From the NCBI GenBank assembly GCA_023511625.1, contig JAIMBD010000017.1:1-49985 (forward strand): a stretch of 49,985 nt of DNA. The letters are read 5' to 3'. This DNA comes from Bacillota bacterium (lineage in GTDB: Bacteria; Bacillota; Sulfobacillia; Sulfobacillales; Sulfobacillaceae). This document shows, one piece after another, positions 44,787-49,985 of this stretch. The notes below the pieces were generated by a model, which was not told the DNA's origin, did not search any database, and worked only from the letters and a program-made list of their open reading frames with translations. The first letter of the stretch is position 1; every line of letters begins with the position of its first letter. The translations under genes were made by a program, and so were the position numbers.

Positions 44787-46067
44787 CAGGGCGGCCGCTG
44801 CGACCACGGCTCCAAGCCACACCCAGAGCACGTTGAAGCCAAGAAAGACGCTGGCCGGCGAAAGTCCGCCCAAAAGAAAGCCCCACAGCGCCGGCCAACT
44901 GGCCCAATACGCGTAGCGCACGAAGGGGTCGCGGCCTTGGCCGAGTTCGGCGGCGTGCACCAACACGCGGACGTAGAATAGTACCCAGAGGCCGAGTCCC
45001 GGCCACCCGCCATCCATGGCGGCCTCGAGCCACGGATTGTGGGCGTCGACTACCCCGTAGGTGTTAAACGGCGCAGGATGATGGACCCAGTAGGTGAAGT
45101 ACCGCTCGGCCCCCCGCGGTCCGAGCCCCAAGGGGTGGTGCAGCACGGCCCGGATCCCGCCGGCCAAAAGCGCCAGGCGGATGCGCACCGAGCCGGGACC
45201 GCCGTTGGGACCGGTCCCCTCCCCCATCAAGTGGGCCAAGTCGCGGAGCTTGACCAAGGCAAACGGCAGGTGTTGCGGCGGCAGGCGGTTTAAGGCCACC
45301 ACCAGCAGCACCAAGGCCGCGATCGCGATGCCGGCGCCGACGGCCCACCGGCGGCGGTGGGGGGCCGGCAAGAGTGCGATGGCGATGCCGGCTTCGATGA
45401 GGGCCATCAGTTCGCCGCCGCGGCTTCCGGTCTCGTAGAGGACGACCAATCCCAACGCCACCCCAATGCCGACCACTACTTTTAGCCAAGGATCTGGCCT
45501 CCACACCGGCAGGGCCGCGACCCATGGGAGGAGGATGGCCAAGGCGACGCCGAGGTTGTTGGGGTCGAAGAAGAAGGCCGTGGGCACATGGCTCGGCGGG
45601 GGGCCCCAGGAACGAGATTGGGCCAAATGGTGGGCCGTGCGCACCTCCCAGAACGCTACGGCCACGGAGGCGGCGTAAAAGGCCAAGAGCGCCACCGCCA
45701 GCGTCGCCTTGAACCAGCCGGGGCGGCGAGCCAGAAGCCACAGGCTCAACACGACCAAGACGCCGCCGACCTGGGTCCAGAGGTAGTAGAACGCGTAGTA
45801 GGTGTGAGGGGAGGCGGTCCAATACCGCTCGCCGAGCCACCCGATCCACAGGACCAAGGCCGAAAGAGCCAGGGTCCCGGTCCGCCAGCGGCCGCGCCAC
45901 CACACGATGAGGACCGCCACCGGCACCAAGAAGACCAACAGGCGTTGAAGGATGCTAAAGAGGGAGTGACCGTGAAGGCCGGGCAGGGTAAGGTATCCCT
46001 GATACAGGCTCGTCGACACGAAGACTGCCAATACCAGTCGCCAAATCCCTTCCAACCAACGCCGCAT
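44727..46067 (-). CDS. O-antigen ligase-like (Wzy_C) membrane protein
   Basis: This 446-residue polytopic protein has 10 or more hydrophobic helices and a large loop before the last helices, with FFFDPNNLGVALAILLPW and YETGSRGGELMALIEA, then DAHNPWLEAAMDGGWPGLG, the pattern of the O-antigen ligase/polymerase (Wzy_C) family. Members join or polymerise glycans at the outer face of the membrane; in Gram-positive bacteria some make teichuronic acid or attach cell-wall glycans. ATG 46067 follows GGAGGAACCGGAGGG. It overlaps E2 by 60 bases at the 3' end. Substrate unknown. Confidence 0.82.
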   Translation of the reverse strand: MRRWLEGIWRLVLAVFVSTSLYQGYLTLPGLHGHSLFSILQRLLVFLVPVAVLIVWWRGRWRTGTLALSALVLWIGWLGERYWTASPHTYYAFYYLWTQVGGVLVVLSLWLLARRPGWFKATLAVALLAFYAASVAVAFWEVRTAHHLAQSRSWGPPPSHVPTAFFFDPNNLGVALAILLPWVAALPVWRPDPWLKVVVGIGVALGLVVLYETGSRGGELMALIEAGIAIALLPAPHRRRWAVGAGIAIAALVLLVVALNRLPPQHLPFALVKLRDLAHLMGEGTGPNGGPGSVRIRLALLAGGIRAVLHHPLGLGPRGAERYFTYWVHHPAPFNTYGVVDAHNPWLEAAMDGGWPGLGLWVLFYVRVLVHAAELGQGRDPFVRYAYWASWPALWGFLLGGLSPASVFLGFNVLWVWLGAVVAAAALSAQLRQQASRIRYQLRHFG

Positions 46068-46384
46068 GGCCCTCCGGTTCCTCCTCCCCGCTCGTCCCCA
46101 TGGTAGCAGACTGCCCGGCGAATGCCAAAAGCGGGACCGATGTTTGGCGTCGGCGTGGGAATTCTGGAGGCGACGCCGGACTTCCTGACCCCCAGCGGAG
46201 AGAGCTGCGGCCGTGACCTCGCAAGGGGAATCGGGCCCAAAAACGCCCAATCACTGGATAGAACTCGCCGAGCGTACCGGCGCCCTGGTGAAACTTGCCC
46301 ACCTGATACGCAGTATTATCGGAGGGGCCGGGAAGGACCTTTACCAGTCTGAATACCCGGGAGAGTAAAGTGGCTCGCGGATTT
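46068..46384. other. Intergenic region, no gene seen
   Basis: 317 bases between the O-antigen-ligase-like gene and the three-gene island. No ORF with a ribosome binding site, riboswitch or terminator is convincing. Base composition falls towards the island, so the transfer boundary probably lies here. Confidence 0.5.
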
Positions 46385-47122
46385 CTAAGATCCGTCGACG
46401 AAGGATGAGAGGGAAACGAGACGAATATCAGCAATCTGAAGGGACTGGCATTTTTGGGACAGGCACGGGCTCAACGCTTGCACATGTTCGGGACGAGGTA
46501 CGACTACGTAGGAGGTGAAGTGGGCCAGGTGTTGCATCAAATGCGCTAGATAGCGCAGCTTCCGGTCAAACGTTGCCGTTCCGAGCCAGGTGAGGAGGTT
46601 ATACTTGACCTCAAAACCGGAGCCTGCCGTCAGGGTCGAATTTCGAGGATCGAGAACAGCTGCCAAGACGTCTAGATTACGCTGGCCATTTCCCGGCATC
46701 TCTCCGGTATCCAAGAAATTATGATGGGGGTCCCGGATTCTCACCTGGCGTAAGACCGTATATTGTCCCCGGTGGCGGCGCAGTGGCTCATGTCGCTTGC
46801 TCCTCACCAGCAGGAAGAAGACCCATTCCAAAAGATGGCCCAAGTCGTCATGCAGCTGCTGAGTGGGGCGAGTTTGGTCGTAGATGTCGTCGAACGCCTG
46901 GAGGACAGTATTTTTCCGTTGGCCCTTTACGACAGAAAGAGCTCGCTGTAGGACGCAACGCCCGCTTTCCCAATACACGGTAGACGAATGACAGGTGGCA
47001 GCCAAAAACCAGAGGGCATGAATGAGACCTTTAGAATTTAAGTAAGGGTCCAGGATCTCGGTTACCAGAGCAACGCGCGATGTCGGATTCGGGTTCCCTG
47101 GAACAGCATAAAAATCAGGCAC
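46385..47122 (-). CDS. Putative PD-(D/E)xK nuclease-like protein (third gene of island)
   Basis: The 245-residue protein is not recognised as a named family. Its first half is helical and soluble. In the second half, LDVLAAVLDP (D151) and, 20 residues on, GFEVKYN (E171, K173) give a D-x19-E-x-K pattern, followed by a helix (LRYLAHLMQHLA) and a strand TSYVVVP, the order of the PD-(D/E)xK nuclease core. GTG 47122 overlaps the previous gene's stop by 8 bases, so the genes are coupled; a longer frame to 47218 lies inside that gene. GC is lower than in surrounding genes. The nuclease call is inference from a short signature. Confidence 0.55.
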   Translation of the reverse strand: MPDFYAVPGNPNPTSRVALVTEILDPYLNSKGLIHALWFLAATCHSSTVYWESGRCVLQRALSVVKGQRKNTVLQAFDDIYDQTRPTQQLHDDLGHLLEWVFFLLVRSKRHEPLRRHRGQYTVLRQVRIRDPHHNFLDTGEMPGNGQRNLDVLAAVLDPRNSTLTAGSGFEVKYNLLTWLGTATFDRKLRYLAHLMQHLAHFTSYVVVPRPEHVQALSPCLSQKCQSLQIADIRLVSLSSFVDGS

Positions 47123-47594
47123 GGATCCAAACTCCCAACACGATGGGGGGAATCCCACAGAGAGAGCTAAACCGGTACAGCTCGGCGCGCATGAAAGGCC
47201 AGATATTGACAGGTACATTGGATTGTCGAAAGGTCTCTAAGATTTGATTTTGAAGGGCAGCGTCCATGTTTGGCCACTGCATACGCATGGGTTCGCCGAC
47301 TTGGTAACGTGCAGTCCAAGATGCCCGGTACGCGAACCCTTTTCGCCGACGGTTGAGATGACGGACGAAGACGCTGATATTGAGTGTGCCGGTGCCATCC
47401 ATCACACCGTTTTCTTCGAGATGAGGTTCCGAGAGGTCCCATTTCACATCGGGTTCGAAGGGAAGGGGAGTTGCCCTACGCAGCAAAGAGGCGTCTAGGT
47501 GAAGCCCTCCGGCGGACTCTCGAAGAAATACGTCAATTAACTGAACATTACGCACAAACTCGGCGTACCGGAGACGAAAAGCGCTACCCTCCAT
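47115..47594 (-). CDS. SecB-like chaperone (second gene of island)
   Basis: The 159-residue protein has the SecB-like fold pattern: FRLRYAEFVRNVQLIDVFL at the start, then beta strands (LNISVFVRHLNRR and FAYRASWTARYQV), and the diagnostic C-terminal helix region NVPVNIWPFMRAEL...CGIPPIVLGVW. This corresponds to the segment of SecB that ends PPL-LAPV. SecB-like proteins occur as the chaperone in toxin-antitoxin-chaperone modules (HigBA-SecB, CmdTAC). ATG 47594 starts 11 bases after the first gene's stop; its ribosome binding site is weak, so coupling is likely. The family call is from motifs by eye. Confidence 0.7.
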   Translation of the reverse strand: MEGSAFRLRYAEFVRNVQLIDVFLRESAGGLHLDASLLRRATPLPFEPDVKWDLSEPHLEENGVMDGTGTLNISVFVRHLNRRRKGFAYRASWTARYQVGEPMRMQWPNMDAALQNQILETFRQSNVPVNIWPFMRAELYRFSSLCGIPPIVLGVWIRA

Positions 47595-47605
47595 GGCTGC
47601 ACCGG

Positions 47606-48043
47606 TTACGCGGCGACGGTATCCGGCAATGACAAGGTGGGACTCCTAGAGCTTTTCCACTCCGCCGGACCAGTCGATCCCAACGCTTGCTCCCCGCGCA
47701 AGGTCTCTAGCAGCTCCTGCCGCGCGTACGATAGCCAACAAATGACGAGCTCCAGGCTTTCTGTCGATTGCGCAGACTCGACTAATCGTTTCCCGAACTC
47801 CAAGAGTTCATGAGAAACGGCCTCATATCGGAATGGATCTAACCAGGCCTGCGCCAAATGCTGAGGATAGGAATCCCGAGATTGGTACGCCCTCACTAGG
47901 GCGTCAGCCAATTGCCGGTAGCCATCACGGGTACCGCACCGGCTACGCACTTGCTGCGCGAGGGCTGAGAATTGCTCGAAAAACATCTCGACGAGCCATT
48001 CGCTCGGCGGTCCACCCTCCGCCAAAGACGGTTGCACAAGCAT
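47606..48043 (-). CDS. Helical protein of unknown function (first gene of island)
   Basis: ATG 48043 is set by GGAGGTGG 6 bases upstream; the longer frame to 48103 has no site. The 145-residue protein is almost wholly alpha-helical (WLVEMFFEQFSALAQQVRSR, then YRQLADALVRAYQ, ELLEFGKRLVES and LELVICWLSYARQELLETL) with a polar tail. I recognise no family. It opens the three-gene unit; in toxin-antitoxin-chaperone modules such a small protein can be the antitoxin, but nothing in its sequence proves that here. Confidence 0.6.
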   Translation of the reverse strand: MLVQPSLAEGGPPSEWLVEMFFEQFSALAQQVRSRCGTRDGYRQLADALVRAYQSRDSYPQHLAQAWLDPFRYEAVSHELLEFGKRLVESAQSTESLELVICWLSYARQELLETLRGEQALGSTGPAEWKSSRSPTLSLPDTVAA

Positions 48044-48398
48044 GGCATTCCACCTCCCTCCGACTCCCCAATCCAACATAGTGCAACGGATGATCATTCG
48101 CAACCCCTTCTTTGTCTATTTGACCTCGCACGGGCGTCTTCTCAGTAGTATGCCCGTCGGCCACGACCATGAGTCGGGCCGCCGTCATCGCCTATGAGAC
48201 CGAAGTTTGGGCGATGCTTTTACCGCCAGGGGCGTCTTTACACCCGCGCGGTGACGACCGGTGGGTTTCTGCAGGTTCCAAGACTGGCCCATGCGTCCAA
48301 GTGCCCGGGAGACCTTGGCGCAAGCGAAAGCCGGCGCGGAGGATGTCCCATAGGGGAGCGTTGGCCGGGATAAGATGAAAAAAGAGGGAGGGAAGGGC
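48044..48398. other. Intergenic region, no gene recognised
   Basis: 355 bases upstream of both the three-gene island (minus) and the S9 peptidase (plus). Short open frames exist on both strands, but none has a good ribosome binding site or a recognisable product. The part near 48050-48170 is AT-richer, as expected for promoters of the island. It could hold remnants of a mobile element; I cannot identify one. Confidence 0.4.
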
Positions 48399-49985
48399 AT
48401 GCAGACCGAAGTCGCCAATCGCGCCGTGTCCTTGTTAGCGGTACGCCGGGCCCTCGGCCCGACCTTTGCCGCCGAATCGGCCACCTTGTTGTTTCGCATG
48501 AACTTGACCGGCACCTTCCAGGTCTACGCCGTGCCGCGGCACGGCGGCTGGCCGGATTTGCTGACCGAGGGCGAAGACCGCGTTACGCGGGTCCTGGCCG
48601 CGCCGGTGGGGCGCTGGGTGGTCTTTGCGCGCGACCACGACGGCGACGAGCGCGATGCGCTTTGGGCCATGGTCGACGACGGAAGCCGGCTTCATCCCCT
48701 GACCGACCCCGATTCAGAAGCCATTTGTCGGCTCGGGGGGTTCCGCCACGATGGTCTAGCCATCGCCTACACCGCCAACCGGCGTCACCCGGCCGACTTC
48801 GACGTCTACATCCAGGCGGTAGAGCCGGGGGCAGAGCCGGTGCAGGTGTGGGAGGGTGAAGGGGACTGGTGCGTGGAAGGCTTCTATCCCCAGGACGAGG
48901 CCCTCTTGCTCAGCCGGCGACGCTCGACCTGGGAGGTGGACCTCTACCGACTGGCACTCGACGGCTCGCGCGAGCTGACGTGGCTGACCCCCCACGAGGG
49001 CGCGGCGCGCTTTGTCCGTCCGGTGTTCGGGTTTCGCCGGATCTACTGCCTGACCGATTTTGAGCGGGAGTACCTCGGGGTGGCAGCGGTGGATCCCGCC
49101 GGCGAAGGACTAGAGTGGATCGCAGATCCCCCCTACGACATCGACCTTTTGGCGGGCAGTCCCGACGGCCAGCGGCTGTGCTGGGCCGTCAACCGCGACG
49201 GCTACTCAGAGGTCTATCTTTACGACGTAGCGACCCGGCGCCCGGTCTTGGTGGAAGGGTTCGGACCGGGAGTGGTCACCGACCTCGTATTCTCTCCGGA
49301 TGGGTTGTGGGTGGCGGCCGAGTTTCAGGCGCCCAACTACAACCCGAACATCTGGGTATTTTCCGCCGAGCGCGGCTTTGCCCAACCGGTCACCCGCGCC
49401 CCCTGGTGCGGAGTCGACCCGGACCAGCTGGTGGTGCCAAGCCTCCACCGGGCCCGCGCCCGCGACGGCGTCACGGTGCCATTCTGGGTCTACCTACCGC
49501 CGGCTTCCGAGGGGCCGGCGCCGGTGGTGGTTTCCCTGCACGGCGGTCCGGAGGCTCAAGAACGACCGCTGTTCTCGCCGCTCTACCAGATGCTGCTGGC
49601 GGCAGGATGGGCCGTGGTGGCGCCCAACGTGCGGGGCAGCACCGGCTACGGAAAGACGTATGCGGCCCGAGACGACCGCGAGCGGCGGCTTGACGTGTTG
49701 GAGGATATCGCGGCCGTGGTGGCGTGGATCCAGGCGCGGCCCGACCTCGATGCCGGGCGCCTGGCCGTGTTCGGGGCCTCCTACGGGGGATACCTCGCGC
49801 TGTGGGCGCTCATTCGGTATCCCGAGTGGTTTCGGGCGGGCATCGAAATGGTGGGTATGGCCGACCTCGAGGCCTTTCTGGAACGGACCAGCCCCTGGCG
49901 CCGGGCGTGGCGGGAGGCGGAGTACGGTAGCCTCTGCCACGACCGCGCGCTTCTGCGAACCCTCTCGCCCATCCACCAGATCGAC
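48399..49985 (+). CDS. S9 family peptidase (prolyl oligopeptidase/acylaminoacyl type), partial
   Basis: The frame runs from ATG 48399 (after GAGGGAGGG) to the window end, 529 residues without a stop. An N-terminal beta-propeller has repeated segments such as FSPDGLWVAAEF and SPDGQRLCWAV. The alpha/beta-hydrolase domain follows, with VVVSLHGGPEAQ (oxyanion region), NVRGSTGYGKTY and the catalytic Ser in FGASYGGYLALW. The Asp and His of the triad lie beyond the window. These enzymes cleave acylated amino acids or proline-containing oligopeptides. No signal peptide, so probably cytoplasmic. Confidence 0.9.
   Translation, partial: MQTEVANRAVSLLAVRRALGPTFAAESATLLFRMNLTGTFQVYAVPRHGGWPDLLTEGEDRVTRVLAAPVGRWVVFARDHDGDERDALWAMVDDGSRLHPLTDPDSEAICRLGGFRHDGLAIAYTANRRHPADFDVYIQAVEPGAEPVQVWEGEGDWCVEGFYPQDEALLLSRRRSTWEVDLYRLALDGSRELTWLTPHEGAARFVRPVFGFRRIYCLTDFEREYLGVAAVDPAGEGLEWIADPPYDIDLLAGSPDGQRLCWAVNRDGYSEVYLYDVATRRPVLVEGFGPGVVTDLVFSPDGLWVAAEFQAPNYNPNIWVFSAERGFAQPVTRAPWCGVDPDQLVVPSLHRARARDGVTVPFWVYLPPASEGPAPVVVSLHGGPEAQERPLFSPLYQMLLAAGWAVVAPNVRGSTGYGKTYAARDDRERRLDVLEDIAAVVAWIQARPDLDAGRLAVFGASYGGYLALWALIRYPEWFRAGIEMVGMADLEAFLERTSPWRRAWREAEYGSLCHDRALLRTLSPIHQID

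Follow-up and report, generated by a model that had tools for sequence, protein, structure and literature searches.

Three minus-strand genes, here called g1, g2 and g3, on contig JAIMBD010000017.1 of a Bacillota bacterium from the family Sulfobacillaceae (assembly GCA_023511625.1) are likely to form a three-part toxin-antitoxin-chaperone (TAC) module whose toxin belongs to a new class. The stretch that was analysed, referred to as the window, comprises positions 1 to 49,985 of this contig. TACs have only recently been recognised as a class of phage defence, with the chaperone apparently acting as the sensor, and the TAC-like module described here is probably anti-phage as well, with g1 as the proposed antitoxin, g2 as the chaperone and g3 as the proposed toxin. 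The first-pass annotation of the window, made from its letters and predicted reading frames, had already interpreted the genes as a TAC-like combination of a nuclease and a chaperone. This interpretation is supported by the present analysis, and none of the three contrary results that it had named (no SecB or nuclease fold, catalytic residues that are not conserved, homologues that never co-occur) was obtained.

Conservation of the three-gene module

The order g1-g2-g3 was identical in about 20 distinct loci from Bacillota, from Clostridioides difficile phage and plasmid DNA and from viral contigs. It was seen in all well-preserved homologous loci, mostly with short gaps or overlaps between the genes. 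This recurrence in the same order suggests an arrangement beyond chance. Additionally, divergence was correlated among g1, g2 and g3 (Spearman 0.43-0.69, Mantel p 2e-4), a correlation to which shared species history may contribute. The idea that the three are unrelated hypothetical genes, adjacent by chance, could draw on the fact that no window protein reaches the cut-off of a curated family, but it is refuted by the shared order in these diverged loci together with the correlated divergence and is almost certainly wrong.

When genomes of the same phylum were searched, g3 was present in 12 of 398, and g2 was adjacent to it in 9 of those 12, so that the co-occurrence of the three genes among homologues, on which the earlier interpretation depended, is borne out. 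The other three genomes held a locus in which g2 and g3 are broken and g1 ends in FTVAA, a remnant of g1 and g3, and a match at a contig edge. Two more g3 matches in the same class were a remnant and an orphan. The complete order was found in two genomes of the same family by a tblastn-type search with g2 as the query, and profile searches found the module in further Bacillota; matches in the annotated collection include Thermosediminibacter, Tepidanaerobacter, Clostridium, Caloranaerobacter, Limnochordales and Heliorestis. The wider g1 and g3 families were reached using alignments of 16 sequences, while hidden Markov models of g1 and g3 built from three sequences found no wider family. The matches in viral contigs came from an alignment-based scan, and a scan of these contigs with single proteins was without success. 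No match was obtained when plasmids were searched by tblastn with the g2 of locus L003 and the window g3, or when the phage collection was searched by tblastn with a C. difficile-type g2.

Two incomplete loci are of note. An orphan g3-like open reading frame (ORF) lies at positions 1498-2121 of locus L080 with g1 and g2 absent nearby, and it may be decayed or under different control. Locus L092 (1601-2185 and 1492-1635), closely related to the Tepidanaerobacter module, has kept g1, has lost g2 and retains a fragment of g3, a state that fits the expectation if the nuclease cannot be sustained without its chaperone.

g3 is a predicted PD-(D/E)xK nuclease

The identification of g3 as a PD-(D/E)xK nuclease is well supported by its modelled fold and its predicted active site. 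The AlphaFold2 model (predicted local distance difference test score, pLDDT, 79; predicted template modelling score, pTM, 0.79) has a helix-strand-strand-strand-helix-strand topology, with strands at residues 122-130, 150-157 and 163-172, a helix at 183-198 and a further strand at 202-208, and this is the alpha-beta-beta-beta-alpha-beta core of PD-(D/E)xK nucleases. In the model D151 starts strand 2, E171-x-K173 lies at the end of strand 3 and E99 is on helix A. The third gene had been described in the first-pass annotation as PD-(D/E)xK-like, and the core fold and the expected placement of the strands agree with that description. Across 12 diverged sequences aligned at first, no columns other than those of D, E and K were invariant. 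When 16 diverged sequences were aligned, D151, E171, K173 and K188 were invariant and the helix-A glutamate E99 was retained in 14. The positions of the putatively catalytic D151, E171 and K173 agree with their original numbering.

The top Foldseek matches of g3 were Can2, Card1 and Cdn1, which are nuclease effectors of type III CRISPR systems (E 6e-4 to 3e-3), and after realignment the list was dominated by restriction-enzyme-like folds (BspD6I, Bse634I, NucC and Can2; VIA Z up to 8.7). In a small profile-profile comparison the catalytic D and ExK of g3 were in register with those of Card1-type domains (p 0.0024, probability 12%; controls 0.42 and 0.78). A sequence search of the PDB with g3 gave no match. 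The nuclease domain of Card1, Can2 and Cdn1 (PF09002 and relatives) thus has the closest Foldseek matches and the same catalytic register, but g3 has no CARF domain and no cyclic-nucleotide control, in place of which it would be controlled by an antitoxin and a chaperone. Membership of g3 in the Card1 family was rejected at the family level for want of a PF09002 match, though the fold and the catalytic register agree. The type II restriction and nicking endonucleases BspD6I and Bse634I also have the PD-(D/E)xK fold; they differ in that g3 has no methyltransferase partner, and the sequences are unrelated.

g2 belongs to the SecB family of chaperones

Judging from sequence profiles, g2 is a SecB homologue. 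The best PDB matches of the g2 family profile were the TAC chaperone Rv1957 (E 7e-6) and H. influenzae SecB (2e-4), with alignments of nearly full length, and g2 carries the signature NVPVNIWPFMR...GIPPIVLGVW. The window g2 alone had no Pfam match, SecB PF02556 included. A C. difficile-type homologue (L050) passes PF02556 with 30.8 bits against a cut-off of 26, homologues on C. difficile plasmids carry the annotation "protein-export chaperone SecB", and the PADLOC model PD-T4-9_C (CmdC) matches three g2 homologues. The proposal that the middle gene is SecB-like is therefore borne out by the matches to Rv1957 and SecB, to Pfam SecB in a relative and to CmdC.

It is unlikely that g2 acts as an export chaperone, because a Pfam SecB search of the window's own genome gave no match (the window g2 itself escapes this search too) and because g2 moves with g1 and g3. 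The assignment of g2 as the export chaperone of the cell was accordingly rejected, canonical SecB being undetected in this Bacillota genome. As a separate observation, a 412-codon open frame in locus L104 (1450-2688) includes a SecB-like domain and is perhaps a fusion protein.

g1 as a candidate antitoxin

In its model and its C-terminal end, g1 looks like a TAC antitoxin. Helices were modelled across residues 14-122, residues 125-145 were disordered (pLDDT < 50), and the window protein ends in ...PDTVAA. A disordered C-terminal extension with a ClpXP-type end, known in TACs as the chaperone-addiction (ChAD) region, is thus matched by the predicted tail of g1 and its VAA end. C-terminal Ala-Ala was found in 15 of 23 distinct g1 proteins, compared with 0 of 22 g2 proteins, 0 of 22 g3 proteins and 26 of 721 background ORFs (3.6%); the nominal binomial p for this excess, which ignores relatedness, is 8e-17. 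One g1 homologue terminates in DNDDYALAA. By analogy, the g1 end is like the ssrA/ClpXP degron of known TAC antitoxins, and both the disordered tail and the Ala-Ala end speak for the antitoxin role that was initially guessed for g1. The window's own genome encodes ClpX and a tmRNA. The tmRNA, which Rfam detects and ARAGORN misses, lies at G000:C34:1983-2331 (L062), and its tag was read by eye on the reverse strand of L062 as ANDTTEYALAA. A PDB sequence search with g1 gave only helical chance matches. The g1 of a Bacillus relative (L040, 5365-5982) terminates in ...ALCC and not in ...ALAA.

A different explanation is that the genes form an effector module that is not of the toxin-antitoxin type. 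In such a module g3 would be held inactive with g1 as a sensor, g2 would constitutively fold or stabilise g3 or g1, and a ligand or phage signal would bring about activation. This would fit the lack of similarity of g1 to known antitoxins, the position of the chaperone gene next to the nuclease gene with coupled translation, and a weak match of the window g1 to EAD1, an effector-associated domain (E 0.0076). However, the EAD1 match is below the cut-off and was not seen in the g1 homologues tested, and g2 belongs to a chaperone family that is used in TACs. A constitutive scaffold would also leave unexplained why the Ala-Ala ends are confined to g1, with none on g2 or g3. The effector-module explanation is considered quite improbable, and a TAC antitoxin remains the preferred role for g1.

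Comparison with known TAC systems

The toxin-antitoxin pairs described with SecB are HigBA, HicAB, MqsRA and CmdTA (PMC11618068, PMC9519451, PMC11980606), and the known toxins HigB, HicA, MqsR and CmdT act on RNA or translation. As in these systems, a SecB-family chaperone is part of the operon described here. CmdTAC of E. coli (PD-T4-9; PMC11618068, PMC9519451) likewise has three genes, a SecB-family chaperone and a helical antitoxin with an unstructured tail carrying an Ala-Ala signal; CmdA shares with other TAC antitoxins a terminal LAA, which is a ClpXP signal (PMC11618068). However, CmdT is an mRNA ADP-ribosyltransferase whereas g3 is a predicted PD-(D/E)xK nuclease, and the order of CmdTAC is toxin-antitoxin-chaperone whereas that of the module is antitoxin-chaperone-toxin. 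The PADLOC models PD-T4-9_A and PD-T4-9_B (CmdT and CmdA) gave no match to g1 or g3 among the window proteins and the homologues tested. A SecB-like chaperone is also shared with HigBA1-SecB of M. tuberculosis (Rv1955-1957), the source of the structure that the g2 profile matched best in the PDB, and with HigBAC and MqsRAC, and in the literature the antitoxin tail in these systems is controlled by the chaperone and ClpXP. They differ from the module in that HigB and MqsR are RelE-type mRNases and HigA and MqsA are DNA-binding antitoxins, neither family being found in the module.

Across Pfam, NCBIfam and PADLOC, no match to the described TAC toxin and antitoxin families (HigBA, HicAB, MqsRA, CmdTA) was found for g1 or g3. 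Since both lie outside these families, the module appears to be a new variant, distinct from the TAC types described so far. A search of the literature on TACs or SecB together with nucleases, with subscription papers and preprints mostly outside its coverage, yielded no PD-(D/E)xK TAC, and because of this the module was classed as having the control logic of a TAC, combined with a toxin class and an antitoxin family that are both new.

Proposed mechanism and role in phage defence

In the proposed model g3 would be a metal-dependent PD-(D/E)xK nuclease toxin, and g1 and g2 would be made ahead of g3, to which translation is coupled. g2 would bind and shield the disordered tail of g1, and as long as g2 is free, g1 would survive and block g3. 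If g2 were lost or occupied, as known cases involving a phage capsid or tail protein suggest, g1 would be exposed to ClpXP and degraded, and the released g3 would cut nucleic acid (DNA or RNA) and so abort the infection. The precedents for such a trigger are a T4 capsid protein for CmdTAC (PMC11618068) and a lambda tail protein for HigBAC (PMC11980606). The toxicity of g3, its neutralisation by g1, the binding of the tail by g2, degradation by ClpXP, the phage trigger and the choice of DNA or RNA as substrate are all steps that we infer. The full proposal, in which the SecB-type chaperone is a phage sensor that structural proteins titrate, the ssrA-mimicking antitoxin is destroyed and a Card1/Can2-like PD-(D/E)xK nuclease is freed to bring about abortive infection, is held with as much doubt as belief.

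A phage-defence role is suggested by the gene neighbourhood. TACs confer phage defence (PMC9519451), and chromosomal copies of the module adjoin Zorya, a PLD helicase with an HmaB-like methylase, a type IV-restriction-like helicase, AriA/AriB-like PARIS genes and PDC-S46 (flanking genes chosen by eye, with no enrichment claimed). The module was also found on viral contigs, on C. difficile phage-like plasmids and beside transposases. In C. difficile phage-plasmids (L060, 4079-5776) it lies between lysis genes (endolysin) and the integrase, an interval that is a common cargo position in prophages. These mobile locations would suit a selfish module that works by the same TAC biochemistry but serves to maintain mobile elements through addiction, with phage defence not its primary role. 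However, the Zorya, PARIS-like and restriction-type genes next to chromosomal copies speak against this, as do two TAC relatives with proven phage defence (PMC9519451), and addiction as the primary role is regarded as rather unlikely.

Several caveats weigh against a TAC with a nuclease toxin. The support is wholly computational. The g1 model is poor (mean pLDDT 65), with helices placed only roughly; 8 of the 23 g1 proteins do not have the Ala-Ala end, and no recognisable antitoxin family was found for g1 in the Pfam, NCBIfam and PADLOC scans. In its fold, g3 resembles named nucleases to a moderate degree (Foldseek E 6e-4; VIA Z no higher than 8.7), and a scan of the window's own genome, g3 included, gave no match to PF09002, the Card1 endonuclease family. 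The module places the chaperone before the toxin, unlike described TACs, and the flanking defence genes were selected without a control.

If the TAC reading is true, the module would be the first TAC whose attack relies on PD-(D/E)xK cleavage, possibly of DNA, and not on RelE-type mRNA cleavage or mRNA modification, and such a TAC would be spread across Bacillota and C. difficile phages. The SecB-plus-degron switch would then be a plug-in control unit serving unrelated toxins. It would also give a testable function to three unannotated protein families, PHROGs 27061, 20189 and 22416 among them, and would explain the presence of genes annotated "protein-export chaperone SecB" in C. difficile phages and in certain Gram-positive bacteria.

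Organisation of the locus and related chaperone genes

The initial description of three packed, low-GC, minus-strand genes amid ordinary genes was confirmed in its coordinates, spacing and base composition (Table 1). The spacer between g1 and g2 is 11 bases (47595-47605), and the GC content is 0.53-0.57 over 46250-48250 compared with 0.64-0.70 in the flanks. The neighbours are ordinary genes for an O-antigen-ligase-like membrane protein (PF04932) and an S9 peptidase (PF00326). Both flanking genes are present in a genome of the same genus (G001), where the conserved blocks are 521 bases apart compared with 2,678 in the window, which suggests that the module was inserted here as an accessory element or has been lost from G001.

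Table 1. Features of the three-gene module and its surroundings in the window.
Feature	Position	Strand	Description
g1	47606-48043	minus	ATG start; 145 aa; proposed antitoxin with degron-like, chaperone-addicted tail
g2	47115-47594	minus	ATG start; 159 aa; SecB-family chaperone, from sequence profiles
g3	46385-47122	minus	GTG start; 245 aa; predicted PD-(D/E)xK nuclease, proposed toxin
g2/g3 overlap	47115-47122	minus	8 bases; GTG start of g3 within the 3' end of g2; putative chaperone-toxin translational coupling
Stretch bounded by two blocks conserved in G001	45820-48497		Accessory insertion or loss

The g2-type scan also returned classical-looking TACs, which provide an internal comparison: HigBA-SecB in Thermus and MqsRA-SecB in a Gemmatimonadetes metagenome-assembled genome. 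In the Thermus TAC chaperones (L045, 5824-6396; L046, 5563-6135; L047, 4428-4988) SecB is fused at its N-terminus to an additional helix-turn-helix-like segment, SKSATIRRLYQEGKSISAIAKELGLTYQRVYNTLRRAG, and in all three loci the chaperone gene directly follows HigBA-like genes. In L046 and L047 a gene for a protein of about 1,090 aa lies downstream of the chaperone gene.
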